A DNA stretch of 64,000 nucleotides from Paenibacillus graminis (GTDB taxonomy: Bacteria; Bacillota; Bacilli; Paenibacillales; Paenibacillaceae), in the NCBI RefSeq assembly GCF_000758705.1, contig NZ_CP009287.1, forward strand, positions 5,766,001 through 5,830,000, read 5' to 3'. The notes below the pieces were generated by a model. It was not told where the DNA came from and ran no database searches. It was given only the letters and a program-made list of their open reading frames with translations. Positions 14,740 to 56,439 of the stretch are shown one piece after another. A program made the position numbers and the translations under genes. The number at the start of each line of letters is the position of its first letter. Positions within the stretch are counted from its first letter, which is position 1.

Positions 14740-16341
<1,602 letters not shown>

Positions 16342-45668: not shown

Positions 45669-46793
45669 CTACAGCGGGAGCACGTTCACATATTCCGGCG
45701 CCGAAACCGGCTGTCCGTAGTCTACATTATTGGTGCCGGTTACGGTCTTTTGCCCGTTCATCCGGATTTGCACCAGGGCATCGTCCGAGTTCTGTGCAAC
45801 GGTAAGCACAACCGATTCCAGCATTTCCGCCGGTACGCCCTTGCCGTCAGCGAACATATCGTCATTGAGGGATACCGTGACCACTCCGTTCTGGCCCGCT
45901 TCCACGGAATCCAGCACCGTTTCCTGCGTCATCACCATCTCCAGCCCCTTCTCTGATTCCGGACCGGCGATCAGCTCATTCAGTGCCGCTTTCAGCGTAT
46001 CCTGCCCTGCGGGTACAAAGCGGGTAACAGGTACATAATACTGATGAGTGCCGTCAGACGTTGCTGCGGAAAAATATACGGTAACCGCGCTTGAATTCAT
46101 CAGCAGCGGGCCATGCTTCGGCAGGTTAATTCCTAGAGTGCGTGTTAAAGGGCGGTCCAGCGGTGTGCCCTGCAGCGGCATCTCCGAAAGCTTTTTGCCA
46201 TCCACCCACAGCTGCACTCCCTGAATTCCGTCCTGGCCGGTCAGTGTCCACGTGATCGCTTCAAGGATTTTGCGCTCATCTGCAGGTTCGTAATCGTTAA
46301 ACTTGGAGTTGAACTCAACCACAGCCAGCTTATCCTTGTCTACGGTGATGTTCTTCACCTCTGTTCCGGCAGGAAGCACACCCTTGAAGCCTTCCGGCAA
46401 TGACGATGCATATGGCCCCTTGCTGACGAGCGCAGCAAGGGAATCCTTCAACATAGCGGTGTTATCGCCTTCCGGCAAGCTTAGGGATACCGGTGCGAGC
46501 AGGCCGTTGCCATCCTTCAGGAAGACGGTTGTCCGTTCCCCGGCTGCAGCCGCAGGCGCAGTATCCGTGCTCACCCCTGCCGCAAGACCGGCCTCATCCA
46601 GCGCTACAGGCCCAAGCACCCCTGTATCCAGCGTTCCCTCGCCGCTGACTTGCAGCATTTGCGCCTCTACCTCACTGGGGGGCGGGTCTACCGATGCCGA
46701 CTCCGAGCCGAACAGGCCGCAGCCGGACAAGGTTAATGGAACAGCGAGCAGGCAAGCTGCGGACAGCCCGCGGATTGGTTTCATATGCTTCAT
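45669..46793 (-). CDS. gerM: Sporulation/germination lipoprotein GerM
   Basis: A 374-aa lipoprotein with lipobox LSGC near residue 25, a Ser/Pro linker and two GERMN domains (about 85-215 and 225-355). Repeated pattern: FLKDGNGLLAPVSLSLPEGD, NTAMLKDSLAALVSKGP, then YFSAATSDGTHQYYVPVTRF, DTLKAALNELIAGPESEKGL, with closing NNVDYGQPVSAPEYVNVLPL. GerM acts in peptidoglycan remodelling during engulfment and in cortex assembly. The rph-rdgB pair lies downstream on the same strand. Confidence 0.92.
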   Translation of the reverse strand: MKHMKPIRGLSAACLLAVPLTLSGCGLFGSESASVDPPPSEVEAQMLQVSGEGTLDTGVLGPVALDEAGLAAGVSTDTAPAAAAGERTTVFLKDGNGLLAPVSLSLPEGDNTAMLKDSLAALVSKGPYASSLPEGFKGVLPAGTEVKNITVDKDKLAVVEFNSKFNDYEPADERKILEAITWTLTGQDGIQGVQLWVDGKKLSEMPLQGTPLDRPLTRTLGINLPKHGPLLMNSSAVTVYFSAATSDGTHQYYVPVTRFVPAGQDTLKAALNELIAGPESEKGLEMVMTQETVLDSVEAGQNGVVTVSLNDDMFADGKGVPAEMLESVVLTVAQNSDDALVQIRMNGQKTVTGTNNVDYGQPVSAPEYVNVLPL

Positions 46794-46893
46794 GAATGAT
46801 TACCCCTTTCAACGCTTGAGATCAGTTGTACTGCTATGTATACGAGCCCTCTGCTCAAAAAATAACAACAGCTTATCCTTAATTGCCGGTTTC

Positions 46894-46923
46894 TGGACAA
46901 TTACGGCGCAGGCAGGGTACAAT
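46894..46923 (+). promoter_or_regulatory. Putative sigma-A promoter of the PgpA-like gene
   Basis: TGGACA (46894-46899), 18-nt spacer, TACAAT (46918-46923), 45 nt before the ATG. Confidence 0.5.
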
Positions 46924-46968
46924 TTTCTAAACCAACCAAACTAAGACTCAATTACGGGGTGACTGATC

Positions 46969-47574
46969 ATGGCCGATACTAATGCAAAAATACCTTACAG
47001 TCTAAACAGCAAAAAGGTCGCGGAAGCAACCAGATTCTGGCTGCATAAACGCGGAGTAACCTTGGAAGAAATCGCCGAGCTGGTGATGCTGCTGCAGAAG
47101 AAATACTATCCGAATCTGACCCTGGAAGAATGTGTGCATAACGTAGAGATGGTACTGAGCAAACGCGAGGTGCAGAATGCTGTGCTGACCGGCATCCAGC
47201 TGGACGTGCTGGCAGAAGAGGGCAAGCTGCTCTCCCCTCTCCAGGATATGATTGAAAACGATGAGAGTTTATACGGCGTGGATGAAATTCTGGCTTTTTC
47301 GATTGTGAACGTATACGGGAGCATCGGCTTCACCAACTATGGTTATGTGGACAAGCTGAAGCCTGGTGTGCTTGAGCGGCTGAACGACAAAAGCACCGGC
47401 CAAATCCATACCTTTTTGGACGATATTGTCGGGGCTGTAGCTGCGGCCGCCAGCTCCCGCATCGCACACCGGAAGCAGGCCGAGCGCGAACAGGAACTCG
47501 GTCAGCCGCATGCACCCGAGGATCTTGAGGCAGCCTCCGGGAAGACGGCAACGGACAAAGTACAACCCGAGTGA
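46969..47574 (+). CDS. Phosphatidylglycerophosphatase A-like protein (YutG type)
   Basis: A 201-aa protein of the PgpA/YutG superfamily. Residues 15-160 match the family: VAEATRFWLHKRGVTLEEIA, LVMLLQKKYYPNLTLEECVH, NVEMVLSKREVQNAVLTGIQ, YGVDEILAFSIVNVYGSIGF, TNYGYVDKLKPGVLERLN and FLDDIVGAVAAAASSRIAHR. Unlike membrane PgpA it lacks clear helices, as in B. subtilis YutG. The likely reaction is dephosphorylation of a phosphatidylglycerophosphate-like substrate, which is not certain for this soluble subgroup. The C-terminal 30 residues are charged and disordered. Confidence 0.85.
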   Translation: MADTNAKIPYSLNSKKVAEATRFWLHKRGVTLEEIAELVMLLQKKYYPNLTLEECVHNVEMVLSKREVQNAVLTGIQLDVLAEEGKLLSPLQDMIENDESLYGVDEILAFSIVNVYGSIGFTNYGYVDKLKPGVLERLNDKSTGQIHTFLDDIVGAVAAAASSRIAHRKQAEREQELGQPHAPEDLEAASGKTATDKVQPE

Positions 47575-47603
47575 AGCCGGCAAGTTTCGCAGGATCGGTA
47601 CAT

Positions 47604-47665
47604 CTATTTCGGGCAGATCCGGACAGATCTCGACAGATTCCCTTTGACCGATCTGCCCCAAATAG
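47604..47665. repeat. 16-bp inverted repeat between genes
   Basis: CTATTTCGGGCAGATC (47604-47619) pairs with GATCTGCCCCAAATAG (47650-47665) with one mismatch; the 30-nt loop itself contains CAGATC-like pieces. No T-run. Confidence 0.6.
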
Positions 47666-47742
47666 GTTGCTTGTTCATGTACCCGAAGTTGTGGGAGCAA
47701 GAGCGCTTAGAATAATAGATTGGAAAGAAGGTGAGCACCAGG

Positions 47743-48648
47743 ATGACTTATTCATTTGTAATCAGCCCGGTGTCAGTACAGGATTTTGAGAGCGAAGATG
47801 AGCTGATCGAGCGCTGCAAGGAATGGAATCTTTTATCCAGTACAGCTACCCGGGTCAAAACCTACCTCTACAAGCGGCAAGGGCTTACGCTGCCTTGTGA
47901 AATTGTAGGGTATGTTGATCCTCAGACCGTTGTGATCCAGTTCGGGAACAAACAGCAGCACTGCATTCATCCCGCTTATCTAAAAGAAATGCAAACTGCT
48001 GCCTTCGGCTCAAGAGCAGGCGCCGTTTCCGATGCAGTTAAGACGGAGGACTCCCAGACCTCTCCCGGAGAGATCATGGCGGAAGACAGGGATGGAGATG
48101 CCGTAGATGCAGCATCCGGAGCTGAAGGGGACGAAAACGCCCAGGCCGCAGCCGCGTTATCTGTTGACACTGGGGCAGACGCAGCAGAGACTGTTGTAGC
48201 TGGGGCGAAGGCTGAAAGGAGCGTGGCAGCTGGGACTAAGGCTGAAGAAACCGTGGTAGCTGGGATTGAGGCAGCAGTGGCCGGGGAAGTTGCAGCCGGT
48301 GAAACGCCAGAAGCTCCGAGGAAGCCGGCTAAATCCAAAAAGAAACCGGCCCTTGTCCTGCCGGATGAGAAGCTCCAGATGACAGCCACTGTCAAAGAGT
48401 TTACGACTGTCCCCAATCATTTCTCTGATAACGACGATGAGGTAATCATTTATGAGGGAGTAAGTGTGGAGGGGCAAGAGCTTACCCTTGAGGAAGTCTG
48501 GTCCAGCCATAGCGCCACGCTGAAAAAGCTGGAGCTGTCCGTTGGCGATATTCTCTCCTTCGAAGCAAAGGTCGTCGCCAAAAAGCTCACCCAGCATCCG
48601 GTCAAATACAAAATCAACAACCCGTCGAAGATCAAAAAGCTGGACTAG
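47743..48648 (+). CDS. Hypothetical protein with Ala/Glu-rich central linker
   Basis: A 301-aa soluble protein. The ATG at 47743 follows AAGGTGAG; an in-frame GTG four codons earlier is less well placed. Residues 1-90 look folded (SFVISPVSVQDFESEDELIE, TATRVKTYLYKRQGLTLPCE, VVIQFGNKQQHCIHPAYLKE). Residues 95-205 are low-complexity Ala/Glu/Val/Gly. Residues 210-300 are again ordered (LQMTATVKEFTTVPNHFSDN, VGDILSFEAKVVAKKLTQHP), with a Lys-rich basic junction before them. I do not recognise a family; the two ordered ends may be nucleic-acid-binding beta domains. Confidence 0.7.
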   Translation: MTYSFVISPVSVQDFESEDELIERCKEWNLLSSTATRVKTYLYKRQGLTLPCEIVGYVDPQTVVIQFGNKQQHCIHPAYLKEMQTAAFGSRAGAVSDAVKTEDSQTSPGEIMAEDRDGDAVDAASGAEGDENAQAAAALSVDTGADAAETVVAGAKAERSVAAGTKAEETVVAGIEAAVAGEVAAGETPEAPRKPAKSKKKPALVLPDEKLQMTATVKEFTTVPNHFSDNDDEVIIYEGVSVEGQELTLEEVWSSHSATLKKLELSVGDILSFEAKVVAKKLTQHPVKYKINNPSKIKKLD

Positions 48649-48669
48649 CCGTCTATATGCAGTGCAAAC

Positions 48670-48698
48670 AGCCCCGGGGTTTCAACCAGCCCGGGGCT
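48670..48698 (+). terminator. GC-rich hairpin after the hypothetical gene
   Basis: AGCCCCGGG pairs perfectly with CCCGGGGCT around an 11-nt loop, 22 nt past the stop codon; no T-run follows directly. It abuts the tandem array. Confidence 0.55.
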
Positions 48699-48705
48699 CT
48701 TCAAC

Positions 48706-49543
48706 AACGGCATTTCTGCCGTTGTTGAGGAGCAAACCCGCCTGCGCGAGCTTCAGCAACGGCATTTCTGCCGTTGTTGAGGAGCAAATTCGCCATGGGA
48801 GCTTCAGCAACGGCACTTTTGCCGTTGTTAAGGAGCAAATTCGCCACGGGAGCTTCAACAACGGCACTTTTGCCGTTGTTGAGGAGCAAATTCGCCACGG
48901 GAGCTTCAACAACGGCACTTTTGCCGTTGTTTTGGAGCAAACCCGCCATGGGAGCTTCAGCAACGGCATTTCTGCCGTTGTTGAGGAGCAAATTCGCCAC
49001 GGGAGCTTCAGCAACGGCATTTCTGCCGTTGTTGAGGAGCAAATTCGCCACGGGAGCTTCAGCAACGGCACTTTTGCCGTTGTTTTGGAGCAAACCCGCC
49101 ATGGGAGCTTCAGCAACGGCATTTCTGCTGTTGTTGAGGAGCAAATTCGCCACGGGAGCTTCAGCAACGGCACTTTTGCCGTTGTTTTGGAGCAAACCCG
49201 CCATGGGAGCTTCAGCAACGGCATTTCTGCCGTTGTTGAGGAGCAAATTCGCCACTGGAGCTTCAGCAACGGCACTTTTGCCGTTGTTTTGGAGCAAACC
49301 CGCCATGGGAGCTTCAGCAACGGCATTTCTGCCGTTGTTGAGGAGCAAATTCGCCACGGGAGCTTCAGCAACGGCACTTTTGCCGTTGTTTTGGAGCAAA
49401 CCCGCCATGGGAGCTTCAGCAACGGCATTTCTGCCGTTGTTGAGGAGCAAATTCGCCACGGGAGCTTCAACAACGGCACTTTTGCCGTTGTTGAGGAGCA
49501 AATTCGCCACGGGAGCTTCAACAACGGCACTTTTGCCGTTGTT
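48706..49543. repeat. 51-bp tandem array, 17 units, one hairpin per unit
   Basis: Each unit is a hairpin (CAACGGCA-loop-TGCCGTTG, up to 10 bp when CAACAACGG/CCGTTGTTG) plus a 30-bp arm. Two unit types recur: TTTC loop with GAGGAGCAAATTCGCCACGG, and CTTT loop with TTTTGGAGCAAACCCGCC; in the middle they largely alternate, giving a 102-bp higher-order period. The first unit is 52 bp. Because 51 is a multiple of three, several frames on both strands stay open, but none has an RBS, so I read it as non-coding. Confidence 0.85.
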
Positions 49544-49637
49544 GATATACACCGTCCCCACGAGCAGTGCAGCCGTCTTGGATTTCAGTCTAGCGTTACC
49601 TGGAGAACGACTCCCCATGAATCCTACGGCAACTCCA

Positions 49638-49819
49638 AGTGGAAAAAGGGACACTAATTTGCTTGCCCACCTCATTCTCCGCAGATGAAATGGAAAAAGG
49701 GGCACTAATTCAGCTCATTTCGCCATTGGACGAGGAATATGGCCACATTAAGTTTCCTTTTTCCATTTAATTCTCAGAATTGCTGAATTTCAGGAAAAAT
49801 AAGCTCCTTTTTTCCAACT
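49638..49819. repeat. Dispersed repeat family A, copy 3 (182 bp)
   Basis: Boxes AGTGGAAAAAGGGACACTAA (49638) and AATGGAAAAAGGGGCACTAA, then inverted TTAAGTTTCCTTTTTCCATT and CTCCTTTTTTCCAACT ending at 49819. Same length and box order as copies 1 and 2, with more divergent boxes. Confidence 0.7.
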
Positions 49820-49856
49820 AGCGCTTGCGAAGAGACCGGTGAGCAAGCGCTAGTTG
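49815..49856. repeat. 14-bp perfect inverted repeat
   Basis: CAACTAGCGCTTGC pairs with GCAAGCGCTAGTTG (loop 14 nt). A second, shorter palindrome, GAGATCAG-A-CTGATCTC, follows at 49872-49888. Confidence 0.7.
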
Positions 49857-49929
49857 GTTAGTTGGAATGAAGAGATCAGACTGATCTCTCAACTTTATAG
49901 TTTACTAGATAAGAGCAAACTGGCCTTTG

Positions 49930-50010
49930 CCGCTTGAACAACGGTATTTTTGCCGTTGTTTCTGCACAAAACAGCCCTCGGGCTTTCAACAACAGTATTA
50001 CGGCCGTTGT
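49930..50010. repeat. Two degenerate outlying units of the 51-bp array
   Basis: AACAACGG-tatttttg-CCGTTGTT and AACAACAG-tattacggc-CGTTGTT, each followed by a unit-like arm (CAAAACAGCCCTCGGGCTTT). They lie 390 bp beyond the main array. Confidence 0.6.
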
Positions 50011-50030
50011 TGTCCAAAAAAGCCAGGCCG

Positions 50031-50420
50031 CGTATACACGGGTTCCCTCCCGATAAGCGGCCTGGCCCCTATACACGGGTTTCCTCCCTGTCTACGCGGC
50101 CTGGCCTCTATTCACGGGTTCCCTCCCGATAAGCGGCCTGGCCCCTATACACGGGTTCCCTCCCTGTCTACGCGGCCTAGCCTATTCACGGGTTCCCTCC
50201 CTGTCTACGCGGCCTAGCCTCTATTCACGGGTTTCCTCCCTGTATACGCGGCCTGGCCCCTATACACGGGTTCCCTCCCTGTCTACGCGGCCTAGCCTCT
50301 ATTCACGGTTCCCTCCCCGTATACGCGGCCTAGCCTCTATTCACGGATTCCCTCCCTGTATACGCGGCCTGGCCTCTATTCACGGGTTCCCTCCCCGTAT
50401 ATACCCGGCCTCTATTCATC
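50031..50420. repeat. ~39-bp tandem array, about 10 units
   Basis: Units of 37-40 bp with consensus GGCCTGGCCCCTATACACGG GTTCCCTCCCTGTCTACGC (written in two parts). Variants include CTCTATTCACGG and GATAAGC endings. The array ends 22 bp before the stop codon of the MBL hydrolase gene, so that gene's transcript would run into it. Confidence 0.8.
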
Positions 50421-50441
50421 TGCTGCCGGGCGGGCAGCTGC

Positions 50442-51437
50442 TTACTTGACGGCCGCGAACATCGTCACTCCGCCGGGCTCCGGCCCGGTGACTTCCGCCC
50501 GCTCCCGGCGCACCAGCTCGGCCAGATGCGCCAGCGCCTCGCTCATAGCGAACCGCATCTGGTGCGCGCTGGACACGCGGCTGCGGAACAGCGCTTCGCA
50601 TACCGCGAAGCCGCTGAGCGGGCCGCCCGCAAGCAGAGCGGCTGTCTGATCCAGCCGCTCTTCGTGATGGCGCAGCAGGCTGTCCGCCCGCTCCGTGAAG
50701 CCCGTGAACGGCTCCCGGTGTCCCGGGAACGCACGGGTCACCCGGAGGCTGCGCAGCTCGCGCAGCCCCTCCATGAAGGTGCGCAGCGGCTGTGGATCGC
50801 TGCCCGGCTGCAGGCTGACATTGGGCGAAATCTGCGGCAGCACAGCATCGCCGCAGAGAATCTGCCCGCTGCCGCCGTGGTAAAAGGATACATGCCCCGG
50901 CGCATGTCCGCCGGTTAGCAGCGGCTGCCATTTGCGGCTGCCCATGATGAACGGCTCCGCCGCGTTGATATAGGCCACCTCCGGCTGCGGAGTAACCTGG
51001 GGCAGGAAGCGCTCCAGATGCTCCCTGATCCCCTGCACCCAATCCTCCGGCATGCCGTAGCGGAGGAAGAACAGCGGCAGCGCTTCATTCAGAACCGCCT
51101 CCGCCCCCCAGGTCAGCCGGGCTTCGCCATGGGCCCGTTCCGACATCCAGACCTTGCCTCCGCTGCGGGACTGCAGCCAGCCGGCAAGGCCGTAATGGTC
51201 CGGATGATGATGCGTAACCACGATGTCACGAATGTTGCTCCAGGAACTGTGCAGCTCCTGAAGCACAACTTCCCACGCCGCTTCCGCCTCAGGCGTATGC
51301 GGCCCTGGGTCAACTACCGTAAGCTGTCCGTTCCGGTCAGGCAGAATATAGCTGTTCACCTGGCGCAGCGGCGGGTCCATCGGAACAGACACCTGAATGA
51401 TGCCGCCTTCCCATGTAATCAGGTCTGCCTTTGACAT
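50442..51437 (-). CDS. Metallo-beta-lactamase fold hydrolase
   Basis: A 331-aa MBL-fold protein. The zinc-binding THHHPDH is near residue 75-81, with the further ligands GGHAPGHVSFYH, CGDAVL and FPGHREPF in order. A C-terminal helical extension (about 230-331) resembles the winged-helix tail of the LACTB2-like subgroup. The ATG at 51437 (MSKADLITW) follows GGGAGGGGG; an upstream frame start is out of RBS reach. Substrate unknown; thioester or RNA hydrolysis are both possible in this group. It lies 42 nt after the methyltransferase stop. Confidence 0.88.
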   Translation of the reverse strand: MSKADLITWEGGIIQVSVPMDPPLRQVNSYILPDRNGQLTVVDPGPHTPEAEAAWEVVLQELHSSWSNIRDIVVTHHHPDHYGLAGWLQSRSGGKVWMSERAHGEARLTWGAEAVLNEALPLFFLRYGMPEDWVQGIREHLERFLPQVTPQPEVAYINAAEPFIMGSRKWQPLLTGGHAPGHVSFYHGGSGQILCGDAVLPQISPNVSLQPGSDPQPLRTFMEGLRELRSLRVTRAFPGHREPFTGFTERADSLLRHHEERLDQTAALLAGGPLSGFAVCEALFRSRVSSAHQMRFAMSEALAHLAELVRRERAEVTGPEPGGVTMFAAVK

Positions 51438-51479
51438 AATACCGTCGCCCCCTCCCTTGAATCTTCTCCCCGATACCAT

Positions 51480-52214
51480 TTAGGGACGCACGCCCATAAA
51501 GATCATCCGCCGCGAGACCTCGGCGTCATACTCATCCTCCTCATAGCTGCCGTGCACGGCCTCCAGTTGAAGACCTGCAGCGGCAATCATCTCGCGGAAT
51601 TTCTCCAGCGGATACAGCTTGACCCGTTCATGATACTTCCGGGGGGCACCGCCTGACTTCGAGGTCAGGATGATATCCTTCTTAACATAGCCGTCCTCAA
51701 TCCGCCGCGACTCATCAATCAGGTTGTCCCCGTCCTCACGGACTGAGTGCGGAACCAGGTGGCGGATTACATAGGCCGGATTCAAGAAATCAACAATGAA
51801 TTTGCCGCCCGGCACCAGCATGCGGTGAATTTCCCGCAGTACCTTGACCTGCTCCTCATCCTCTTCAAAATATCCAAACGAAGTAAATAAATTTACCACA
51901 GCGGCAAAACCGCCTTCAAGCGGCAGCCTGCGCATATCCGAACGTATCCAGGTGACGGCTTCGGCCCCGGTCTGCGCCCGTGCTTCACGGAGCAGCGCTT
52001 CGGATAGATCCACACCCGTAACCTCATAGCCCGCTTCCGCAAGCGCCAGGGAATGGCGGCCCATACCGCAGCATAAATCCAGCACTTTAGCGCCTTGCGG
52101 CAGCTCCAGCCATCCAATCATTTTCTCCACCTCACGCCGTGCCCCGCCGAAATCCCTATGCCTGTATACAATTAAATAATCCTCGCCAAAGCTATCCTCA
52201 TACCACTCGCCCAT
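51480..52214 (-). CDS. Class I SAM-dependent methyltransferase
   Basis: A 244-aa methyltransferase starting MGEWYEDSFGEDYLIVYRHR at ATG 52214 with AAGGAG upstream. Rossmann motifs: VLDLCCGMGRHSLALAEAGY (SAM-binding), VTGVDLSEALLREA and FTSFGYFEEDEEQVKVLREI, KFIVDFLNPAYVI. The RHRDFGGARREVEKM opening is typical of a Bacillus/Paenibacillus group with unknown substrate. It forms a two-gene unit with the MBL hydrolase. Confidence 0.88.
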   Translation of the reverse strand: MGEWYEDSFGEDYLIVYRHRDFGGARREVEKMIGWLELPQGAKVLDLCCGMGRHSLALAEAGYEVTGVDLSEALLREARAQTGAEAVTWIRSDMRRLPLEGGFAAVVNLFTSFGYFEEDEEQVKVLREIHRMLVPGGKFIVDFLNPAYVIRHLVPHSVREDGDNLIDESRRIEDGYVKKDIILTSKSGGAPRKYHERVKLYPLEKFREMIAAAGLQLEAVHGSYEEDEYDAEVSRRMIFMGVRP

Positions 52215-52386
52215 GTTCCTTCTCCTTCCGCAGCAGTGCCTGCACAAGCCTCTCTATGTATGTAACGCCTGTATCCAACCAGGCTCTCCCGATTTTCACG
52301 GCCATGCCCCTGCTATTTCTCTTACTGCCGGGTTTGAATATATCACCTAATGTAACGCAATTGTACCGCCTTTTATAGGTAAACTC

Positions 52387-52435
52387 AAAAAAGAGTCGTC
52401 ATTTCGCCATACTTCCCGCGTCATGGCAACTCTTT
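52387..52435 (-). terminator. Terminator downstream of the GH13 gene
   Basis: On the minus strand AAAGAGT pairs with ACTCTTT, with an inner GCCAT/ATGGC, followed by TTTTTT. Confidence 0.7.
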
Positions 52436-52443
52436 AGCCGCTT

Positions 52444-52702
52444 CTATATAAGCTCTAAAACTTTAGCTTAACATTGGGTATAGTCGTCACTGCGGGGAAT
52501 GATTGAATTACTAGCCACTGTTGTACCCGGGTTTCTTGAATAAACCGCTAATTGCGGTTGAAACCCGGTGACTGATTATGCTTCCAAATGCGAGCTTTCC
52601 TACGAAAAGCTTTCAGGCGACGCTTCCCCCTCCTACAGTTCCAACTTCCCCTCCGCACTTCCACCTTTTTATGTGTTTTTTATTTAAGTTCATCTTATCT
52701 AG
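52444..52702. repeat. Dispersed repeat family B, copy 3 (259 bp); overlaps a stop codon
   Basis: Ends CTATATAAGCT and TTTAAGTTCATCTTATCTAG. The central nested hairpin is ACCCGGGTTTC paired with GAAACCCGGT enclosing AACCGC-taatt-GCGGTT. Its last bases overlap the TAG of the GH13 gene, so insertion may have supplied that gene's present stop codon. Confidence 0.75.
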
Positions 52703-55134: not shown

Positions 55135-56439
55135 CTAGCTTAATTGCTTGATTACAATCGACGCATTGACGTTCGCCTGTGTCCCCCCGGCCAGCGTCTG
55201 CAGTGTGACAGCCGCAGCAGAGCTGTGGTTGCGCAGCGTCAGCACATCTCCCGATGACAAGGCCAAGATCGCCTGCCCGGTGTTTTGCTGAGTTCCTGCA
55301 CCTGAGCCGTATACGGTACCCGGGACCAAGGCTCCATTGACGAACAATGCGAACTGGTTGGGTTCCACGCCGGATACCGAGAAATTAACCTCATAAATCC
55401 CCGCATTGGTGACTGAAATCGTCGTTGTGCCGGGAGCATGAGTAATTCCCGGAGTCAGCAGACCGTTTGTATCAAAAGACACGTCCGCTTCAATCGGCAC
55501 CACCTGGGCGCCGAGGTTATACACATAACCGAAATTGGCAATTCCGCCAGCCGCTCCGGTTGCGCCCGTTGCTCCGGCAGGCCCTGCCGCTCCTGTTGCT
55601 CCAGCGGGTCCTGCTGCTCCGGCAGGTCCGGCAGGTCCGGCAGGTCCAGCCGCTCCTGTTGCTCCGGCAGGTCCTGCTGCTCCGGCGGGTCCAGCCGCTC
55701 CTGTTGCTCCGGCAGGTCCAGCCGCTCCTGTTGCTCCAGCGGGGCCCGCTGCACCCGTTGCTCCTGGTGCACCCGCTGGTCCTGCCGGACCTGTGGGTCC
55801 CGCGGGACCGCCAGCTCCGGCTGGCCCAGCCGGCCCGGCGGGTCCGGCAGGACCCACCAGTCCGCCGATTCCCGCCGGGCCTATGGCTCCGGCGGCTCCC
55901 AGCGCTCCAGCGGCTCCCAGTGCACCGGCAGCTCCCAGTGCACCCGTTGCCCCCGCTGCACCAAGCGCACCAACAGCTCCTGCGGCGCCGAGAAGCCCGG
56001 CGGCACCAATAGCACCCAAGCCGCCGGTTGCGCCACGCGCTCCTAACGCTCCAGCCACGCCTGCGGCGCCCAACGCTCCGGCGGCACCTACAGCCCCCAG
56101 AGCTCCAGCAGCACCCGTTGCACCTAAAGCTCCTGCTGCTCCGGCAGCACCCAAAGCTCCTGCTGCCCCGGCGGCTCCGGCGGCCCCCAGCGCTTCCACA
56201 GCACCGGCTGCACCAAGTGCTCCAGCAGCTCCCGCCGCACCCAATGCACCAAGTGGAATATTCACACGGACAATCTGCCTTTTGACGATGATTTCCTTGC
56301 AGCAGCACTTCTTGCCATCTTCATGTTTCCGTTTTACAGGCTTCCTTTTAGGCCGTTTCTTAGGCAACTTTGGCAAAGGACATTCAAGCAGCTCCTTTTC
56401 AGGATTGGGGCATTTTTTCTTATGCTCAAGACGTCTCAT
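55135..56439 (-). CDS. BclA-like collagen spore-surface protein, intact
   Basis: A 434-aa protein from ATG 56439 (MRRLEHKKKCPNPEKELLEC), chosen for GGAGGTG at 8 nt. Residues 1-60 are Lys/Cys-rich (KKCCCKEI), unlike the other collagen genes here. Residues 62-295 are Gly-X-Y triplets, first mainly GAA, GAL, GAV and then GPA, GAT. Residues 300-434 are a BclA/TNF-like trimer domain (NFGYVYNLGAQVVPIEADVS, ISVTNAGIYEVNFSVSGVEP, VTLQTLAGGTQANVNASIVI). No export signal; spore-surface location is inferred from the family. It is the intact paralog against which the 14766 lesion can be read. Confidence 0.85.
   Translation of the reverse strand: MRRLEHKKKCPNPEKELLECPLPKLPKKRPKRKPVKRKHEDGKKCCCKEIIVKRQIVRVNIPLGALGAAGAAGALGAAGAVEALGAAGAAGAAGALGAAGAAGALGATGAAGALGAVGAAGALGAAGVAGALGARGATGGLGAIGAAGLLGAAGAVGALGAAGATGALGAAGALGAAGALGAAGAIGPAGIGGLVGPAGPAGPAGPAGAGGPAGPTGPAGPAGAPGATGAAGPAGATGAAGPAGATGAAGPAGAAGPAGATGAAGPAGPAGPAGAAGPAGATGAAGPAGATGATGAAGGIANFGYVYNLGAQVVPIEADVSFDTNGLLTPGITHAPGTTTISVTNAGIYEVNFSVSGVEPNQFALFVNGALVPGTVYGSGAGTQQNTGQAILALSSGDVLTLRNHSSAAAVTLQTLAGGTQANVNASIVIKQLS

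Follow-up and report, generated by a model that had tools for sequence, protein, structure and literature searches.

Replication-oriented arrays of 51-bp hairpin units between the genes of Paenibacillus graminis and several relatives

The window, by which we mean the whole 64,000-nt stretch of P. graminis DNA that was analysed, lies on a chromosome of 7,166,464 bp and contains, between two convergent genes, a tandem array of hairpin units accompanied by several other repeats. The Pfam scan around the array covered two genes on each side. The features of this region are as follows.

47731..48648, plus strand: flanking gene of 305 aa without a Pfam match; its stop lies 53 bp upstream of the array
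48702..49543, plus strand: family A array of 17 units (TRF, core scan and genome BLAST)
49637..49768, plus strand: family C element (strand-biased k-mer family; same layout at other loci)
49790..49935, plus strand: left-hand module D (..CAACTTTATAGTTTACTAGATAAGAGCAAACTGGCC..), limits approximate (flank comparison among array loci)
49936-49960 and 49987-50011, plus strand: two worn family A cores (core scan; genome BLAST match 5815913-5816012)
50033..50401, plus strand: separate 39-bp array of 9.6 copies (TRF)
50442..51479, minus strand: flanking gene for a metallo-beta-lactamase-fold protein (Pfam PF00753), convergent with the 305-aa gene and used as synteny anchor

TRF placed the array at 48699-49545 with a period of 51 bp, 16.6 copies and 88% matches, and the core scan gave a spacing of 52 bp for the first step and 51 bp for the remaining 15, so that the 17-unit, 51-bp hairpin array described in the initial annotation is real. 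Its proposed span (48706..50010) stands in part: an array is present there, but the array proper ends near 49545, the segment 49637-49768 belongs to family C and the 39-bp array starts at 50033. Each unit joins a 25-bp palindromic hairpin core (CARCAACGG YAYTTY TGCCGTTGTT) to a 26-bp spacer. As had been stated, on the plus strand CAGCAACGG in the left arm gives a G-T pair and CAACAACGG a perfect pair; on the opposite strand the G-T pair becomes an A-C mismatch. Two unit types alternating with a 102-bp period had also been claimed, which is correct for units 7-15, to which strict alternation is confined, but not for units 2-4 and 6-7, where the same spacer type is repeated. The two worn units noticed at 49930-50010 were recovered as cores at 49936 and 49987. 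The family C element consists of direct copies at 49637-49659 and 49688-49710 (AARTGGAAAAAGGGRCACTAATT), 51 bp apart, and an inverted copy at 49747-49768; module D stands ahead of A cores at several of the loci listed in the flank comparison.

The 39-bp array was found at one place only in its own genome, and versions of 36 and 37 bp adjoin the same gene in the relatives G029, G052 and G047. It was dropped as a class member for lack of a second genomic place and is probably a local minisatellite outside the class formed by families A, B and C. The terminator scan returned three sites, none of them inside the hairpin array, and the plasmid and phage collections contained no match. Elsewhere in the window we noted an 18-bp tandem repeat of 38.7 copies (15168-15855), possibly coding, and overlapping 9/18/27/36/45-bp repeats rich in GCT/CCT (55568-56255), possibly a low-complexity coding region.

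A translated 17-residue repeat protein, raised in the initial annotation as an alternative, would agree with 51 bp being 17 codons, and several reading frames of the window array do contain long ORFs, yet we consider it extremely improbable. Across 36 arrays no reading frame was stop-free in all (best 32, worst 3), and steps of 50 and 52 bp occur within arrays. Array ORFs do reach the whole-protein Pfam cut-off for some families (VP9, DEAD, PilO), but these scores are sums across repeats and no single stretch passes; one array ORF gave no homologue at E<=0.001 among 8000 candidates scored. With no common open frame, frame-breaking units and no homologue among those candidates, the array was rejected as protein-coding.

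The core of the window array recurs 417 times in its own genome at up to 3 mismatches (198 on the plus and 219 on the minus strand), against 0 genome-wide matches for the reversed core pattern used as control, which places it beyond chance. About 40 of the 417 cores are without an assigned location. Clustering of matches gave at least 39 family A loci; the BLAST search with the array scored 40 of 72 candidates, and a second probe (40 of 86 scored) gave no new array locus among the matches listed. The same hairpin, for which a search of other intergenic regions had been proposed, thus forms dozens of arrays across the genome and in relatives, and copies at places all over the genome and in further species speak against the chance expansion in a single strain that had been considered as well. 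A second hairpin, family B (CAGAGGTAYTTWTACCTCTCATTTCA), has 92 cores in the genome (complete list), and at most of the loci sampled family C consists of 2-4 copies spaced by about 51 bp, together with an inverted one. The three families have no common core, yet all step at about 51 bp. In the A loci, 45 intergenic TRF rows had a period of 51 bp, the remaining periods having at most 4 rows each, an excess partly expected as the loci had been chosen for A arrays. Among TRF rows with a period of at least 24 bp, which may overlap, the 50-52-bp class made up 11/30 in an 800-kb sample of the own genome, chosen away from known A arrays and therefore representing lone copies and other families rather than random arrays. 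The corresponding shares were 8/22 in 400 kb of G059, a genome with one A match, 5/27 in 200 kb of G008, and 0/8 in 200 kb of G007, where no 50-52-bp array was seen. Arrays across the class have 1-30 copies. The best reading of the class is that of non-coding intergenic Paenibacillus repeats in tandem 51-bp units, most of which form a hairpin. In the leading-strand sequence, which is that of the lagging-strand template, the hairpin loop is usually rich in purines, and on the opposite strand in pyrimidines.

The exact A core was found in Paenibacillus jilunlii, P. helianthi, Paenibacillus sp. HW567 and sp. S150. At up to 2 mismatches, 11 of the 100 Paenibacillus genomes sampled, the own genome included, carried family A, with 163-378 cores in six, 11 in one and 1 or 2 in four. 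Family B, searched with a general pattern, occurred in 45 of the 100, with no match to the reversed control in any; the largest totals were 256 (G059), 256 (G073) and 234 (G008). Among 197 genomes sampled across the bacterial family, 18 of the 22 Paenibacillus genomes had it, as did 1 of the 175 belonging to other genera. This one genome, G270, belongs to another genus of the same family and has five B matches.

The strand on which the arrays lie follows replication. In the own genome (at least 49 BLAST matches), they are on the minus strand at 0.40-3.59 Mb and on the plus strand at 3.74-6.93 Mb. The sole departures in this search are two weak minus-strand matches inside one plus-strand array, which we take to be due to palindromy. 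Local GC skew was positive in 20/20 loci with minus-strand cores and negative in 21/21 with plus-strand cores; in further 20-kb stretches it was positive in 20/20 and negative in 20/20, and the family A strand switch is at the position of the GC-skew switch. Within 41 A loci, a set that leaves out the array at 6.93 Mb, 365 of 366 cores (up to 3 mismatches) pointed in the expected direction, the exception being a lone core at 6276611. In the 800-kb sample all seven further A sites (up to 5 mismatches; five lone cores and two short arrays) were correctly oriented. As degenerate lone copies are also oriented, the polarity is not solely an effect of array growth.

For a comparison between genomes, matches within 3 kb were clustered and fitted by two arcs of opposite strand, with the switch points free in data and shuffles alike. 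For family A the fit accounted for 39/39 loci in the own genome, 39/39 in G047, 40/40 in G052 and 35/40 in G054, and for family B for 24/24 in the own genome (23/24 by GC skew), 38/38 in G059, 19/20 in G008 and 33/35 in G076. Altogether 267 of 275 loci in seven genomes followed the rule, and each value was reached in 0/200 shuffles; mostly 40 candidates were scored per relative, so that the counts mean at least this number of loci. In G052 the two strand switches are separated by about half a genome. Family B switches strand as A does, bar four cores of one array (6899889), and its locus at 6.90 Mb is consistent by the two-arc fit and an exception by GC skew. The direct copies of family C follow the replichore at sampled loci; this rests on two data sets, one k-mer having a reverse match (7 loci vs 1), and the element itself includes an inverted copy.

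Exceptions occur in several genomes. The GC-skew comparison covers the own genome, G054 and sampled stretches of G059 and G008; among 20 G054 stretches, picked to include apparent exceptions, six arrays oppose the local skew (623700, 1494513, 3982566, 5598587, 5647155 and 5924157). Three of these (623700, 3982566 and 5598587) have one common spacer subtype, also found at 1341701 in the expected orientation, and in 5647155 and 5924157 the loop is uninformative on strand. At a seventh array (561387) the skew is near zero, and the two-arc fit assigns 1494519 and 2248295 opposite to local GC skew. When arrays were classed by their loop, many had a consensus stem too weak for this. With a consensus stem of at least 6, the ratio of right to wrong calls was 33/0 for A loci, 5/0 for G059 (purine loop on the leading strand in 5/5 arrays with a clear stem), 1/0 for G008, 1/1 for the 800-kb sample and 9/7 for the exception-rich G054 set. 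Two B-like hairpin arrays of the own genome, at 1575769 (L105) and 2639844 (L115), have the T-rich loop on the wrong replichore strand. The near-uniform orientation suggests that the replication fork is where the arrays act or from which they spread.

As genes also favour the leading strand, we considered whether array orientation is a by-product of gene-strand bias. The genes are predictions of a simple custom codon-score caller, and its ORFs within arrays were disregarded in naming the neighbours. Genes in A loci were leading in 397 of 534 cases (137 lagging), against 39/39 array loci. Of the 43 intergenic gaps with A sites, 19 lay between convergent genes, 18 and 5 between tandem genes on the leading and lagging strand, respectively, and 1 between divergent genes; most sites were downstream of a leading-strand gene. 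A gene-based rule would flip the lagging-tandem sites and leave the convergent ones undecided; both follow replication, except the lone core at 6276611, so the orientation does not come from genes and the by-product explanation was rejected.

The same gaps bear on the idea that the arrays are RNA elements, with hairpins in leading-strand transcripts serving as 3′ ends, processing or anti-antisense signals. This would suit the siting mostly downstream of leading-strand genes, and in 37/47 sequences the RNA hairpin is more stable in the leading sense. Against it, orientation ignores gene direction at the 5 lagging-tandem and 19 convergent gaps, and wobble pairs favour opposite strands in the two families: 56 G-T pairs on the T-loop strand vs 35 on the other in A, and 45 on the A-loop strand vs 21 on the other in B. 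The bias thus singles out no RNA strand, and wobble pairs were given up as an RNA strand signature. An Rfam search of 46500-52500 gave nothing above cut-off (best snoZ157, 29.5 bits vs 55), and the sub-threshold matches at the array were taken as chance on a repeat. We therefore regard an RNA element as very unlikely. Where the initial annotation had left the choice between a transcript and a DNA or recombination array, the DNA-level reading fits better, as the strand follows replication and not neighbouring genes, and the transcript reading fits less well.

As had been claimed, pairing tends to be kept. In the related family B, 91.2% of stem cells were paired among 62 distinct sequences, chosen by hand from listed places and not from all matches. 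Compensatory change was seen in 44 double-change cells vs 18.9 +/- 3.2 after shuffling that keeps relatedness (0/500 shuffles; 0 to 20 when the partner was slid), while 4 pairs showed a double change at all, without excess over shuffles (mean 3.5; 278/500). At the metallo-beta-lactamase gene of G073, 9 of 14 listed A cores carried CAATAACGG/CCGTTATT, in which both sides of one pair are changed; in three a single side was. The A core was 94% identical between 38 arrays, a value inflated since the arrays were located by core sequence, and the spacer 53% (29% shuffled); within arrays, spacers were 87% identical.

Homogenisation within each locus (spacer 87% within, 53% between) is what a selfish minisatellite would display, in which slippage depends on orientation and hairpins expand on one nascent strand and contract on the other. 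The number of cores at one orthologous gene also varies by species, as such an element would (counted in 1.5-kb flanks). Its prediction that the T-loop DNA hairpin is the more stable failed: energies ran the opposite way, the other strand being more stable in 41/47 sequences by a mean of 0.6 kcal/mol, and T-loop stability was rejected as the driver of expansion. Lone degenerate copies are oriented too, and the stem covariation is left unexplained unless palindromes correct themselves. Taken together, these results make slippage as the whole explanation unlikely.

Sites were compared between species by way of the metallo-beta-lactamase gene, which gave a single strong match in each of the 8/8 relatives searched. 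A cores adjoin it in G029, G052, G047, G073 and G026, on the strand opposite to the gene as in the own genome, their number varying by species from 2 to 14 in flanks cut at 1.5 kb; within the same flanks no A core was found in G054, G059 or G009. When 20 G054 array loci were compared with the fetched loci of the own genome, five were selected for close alignment. Array and strand were common to both genomes at L158 (G054) and L050 (own; array neighbours are short, weak gene calls) and at L156 and L085, respectively. At L139 (G054) and L051 (own), each genome's array sits at a gap empty in the other; the G054 array at L153 is replaced by a 47-bp gap in the own genome (L114); and at L142 vs L086 the own array has no counterpart, the G054 array being elsewhere with one flank only matched. 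Arrays are thus present or absent at orthologous sites, with orientation conserved where a site is shared. At the three presence/absence junctions, whose flanks are too diverged, no target duplication or fixed target sequence was legible.

This turnover has to be set against the possibility that the arrays are a polar functional signal under selection, which a replication, segregation or repair machine reads one way and whose wrong-way copies are removed; an FtsK/SpoIIIE-type DNA translocase or a fork-pausing or primosome-loading protein may be the reader. Such a signal would account for near-absolute polarity in six genomes, the stem covariation of family B, a core conserved far beyond its spacer and a common 51-bp step, near five helical turns, without a common core. 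On the other hand, besides presence and absence at orthologous sites, wrong-way arrays persist in G054 where local GC skew is ordinary for the replichore, B occurs in only 45 of the 100 genus genomes, and array density shows by eye no visible rise toward the terminus. We consider selection for a signal of this kind, the main rival explanation, rather unlikely.

The reading that we prefer, at a rough probability of 45%, is that the repeats are non-coding, use a folded single strand at the replication fork to spread, and are then amplified in tandem. New copies would arise via a single-stranded intermediate, most likely on the exposed lagging-strand template, and an enzyme or repair route reading the folded hairpin would set orientation at birth. 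Founder units may then be amplified and homogenised by unequal recombination or slippage into 1-30 copies, a step that could also have produced the 102-bp dimer in the middle of the window array. Copies would survive chiefly downstream of genes and in convergent gaps, where no promoter would be damaged. That whole units are polar, even as lone copies, in families with unrelated cores is what a process acting on one exposed fork strand would produce. Counted against insertion at the fork are that no enzyme for array spread was found, that no target duplication was legible and that orientation has exceptions, and insertion leaves the 51-bp step common to core-unrelated families unexplained.

A wider reading joins these elements: replication-polar DNA hairpins throughout the genus with a 51-bp ruler. 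Several core-unrelated families would have step and strand in common on account of one undescribed machine at the Paenibacillus fork that writes or reads folded single-stranded hairpins; stem sequences would drift in compensated pairs, with step, loop class and polarity preserved. We hold this to be doubtful.

The nearest known system in build and siting is the BOX element of Streptococcus pneumoniae, which is intergenic and dispersed, with a tandem boxB module forming hairpins (PMC3049150). The same paper describes pneumococcal repeats as forming clusters of several families with an excess between convergent genes. Intergenic dispersal, tandem hairpin modules, family clusters and a convergent-gap excess are also found in the Paenibacillus arrays. 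In contrast, BOX has 60.8% of copies on the leading strand (RUP 60.9%, SPRITE 63.3%), mirroring coding bias (PMC3049150), compared with 267/275 Paenibacillus loci on the two-arc rule. BOX, compared here by its description, has boxA and boxC ends around boxB, whereas recurrent left (C, D) and right modules stand at some A loci only.

REP/BIME/REPIN sequences with RAYT (TnpAREP) are high-copy intergenic palindromes of several families with a partner of ssDNA biochemistry (PMC6006769). They resemble the arrays in palindromic intergenic cores, copy number and several families per genome; unlike inverted pairs, the arrays are direct 51-bp repeats. In the units inspected by eye, GTAG was absent 5′ of the hairpin, the flanks being mostly GCTY and GGAA (A) or ATGA and TGAATY (B). 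The orientation of IS200/IS605 elements, the precedent for a fork-directed origin of polarity, recapitulates replication direction, with excision and insertion favouring the lagging-strand template (PMC5371812), and their ends are read as single-stranded secondary structures (PMC6006769). The arrays are alike in following replication, but have no common frame able to encode a transposase. Of the 31 genomes with 10 or more B copies, 9 lack Y1_Tnp (PF01797) and the other 22 have 1-12 matches, so that an IS200-like route would need another agent. The Y1_Tnp-free genomes include G059 (256 copies), G008 (234), G076 (201) and G009 (198), while G073 (256) has 4 matches and G087 (204) has 2. Y1 transposases are thus lacking in four of the six genomes richest in B, and a REP/RAYT or IS200 partner was rejected. 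The own genome has one PF01797 match, with an open frame of 157 aa.

Polar motifs of the KOPS/SRS/Chi type are short non-palindromic words, in and outside genes, oriented to replication; the arrays are oriented alike but are long intergenic hairpins with gain and loss. Integron attC sites are read by structure on one folded strand, their sequence drifting while stems are kept, a design similar to that of the arrays, whose 26-bp spacers contain no gene cassette. CRISPR differs in that array spacers are not unique but 87% identical within arrays. The view of the initial annotation that no described family has this design agrees with our search of literature on Paenibacillus repeats and replication-oriented intergenic repeats (most subscription papers outside its scope), in which no description of the class was recognised.

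The window array is one of dozens between genes in P. graminis and several relatives. Repeat strand alone nearly marks each replichore across families with unrelated cores, compared with 61-63% for pneumococcal repeats, which mirror gene strand bias (PMC3049150). The class points to a replication-coupled process unconnected with the known Y1 HUH transposases. The arrays naturally record lagging-strand events, can serve to mark the origin, the terminus and inversions of Paenibacillus genomes, and make it testable whether insertion or selection is the source of strand polarity.

Two further repeats were noted beside A arrays. At L050 a long 12-bp repeat (GAGGAGGGCCGT) lies directly upstream of a 17-unit A array. 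A recurrent module, about GTCCACATTCGTCCTTTAGACGAA..TTATCCRCAACAGAAAA, stands to the right of the A arrays at L070, L062, L082 and L083 and contains a word that we take to resemble a DnaA box.
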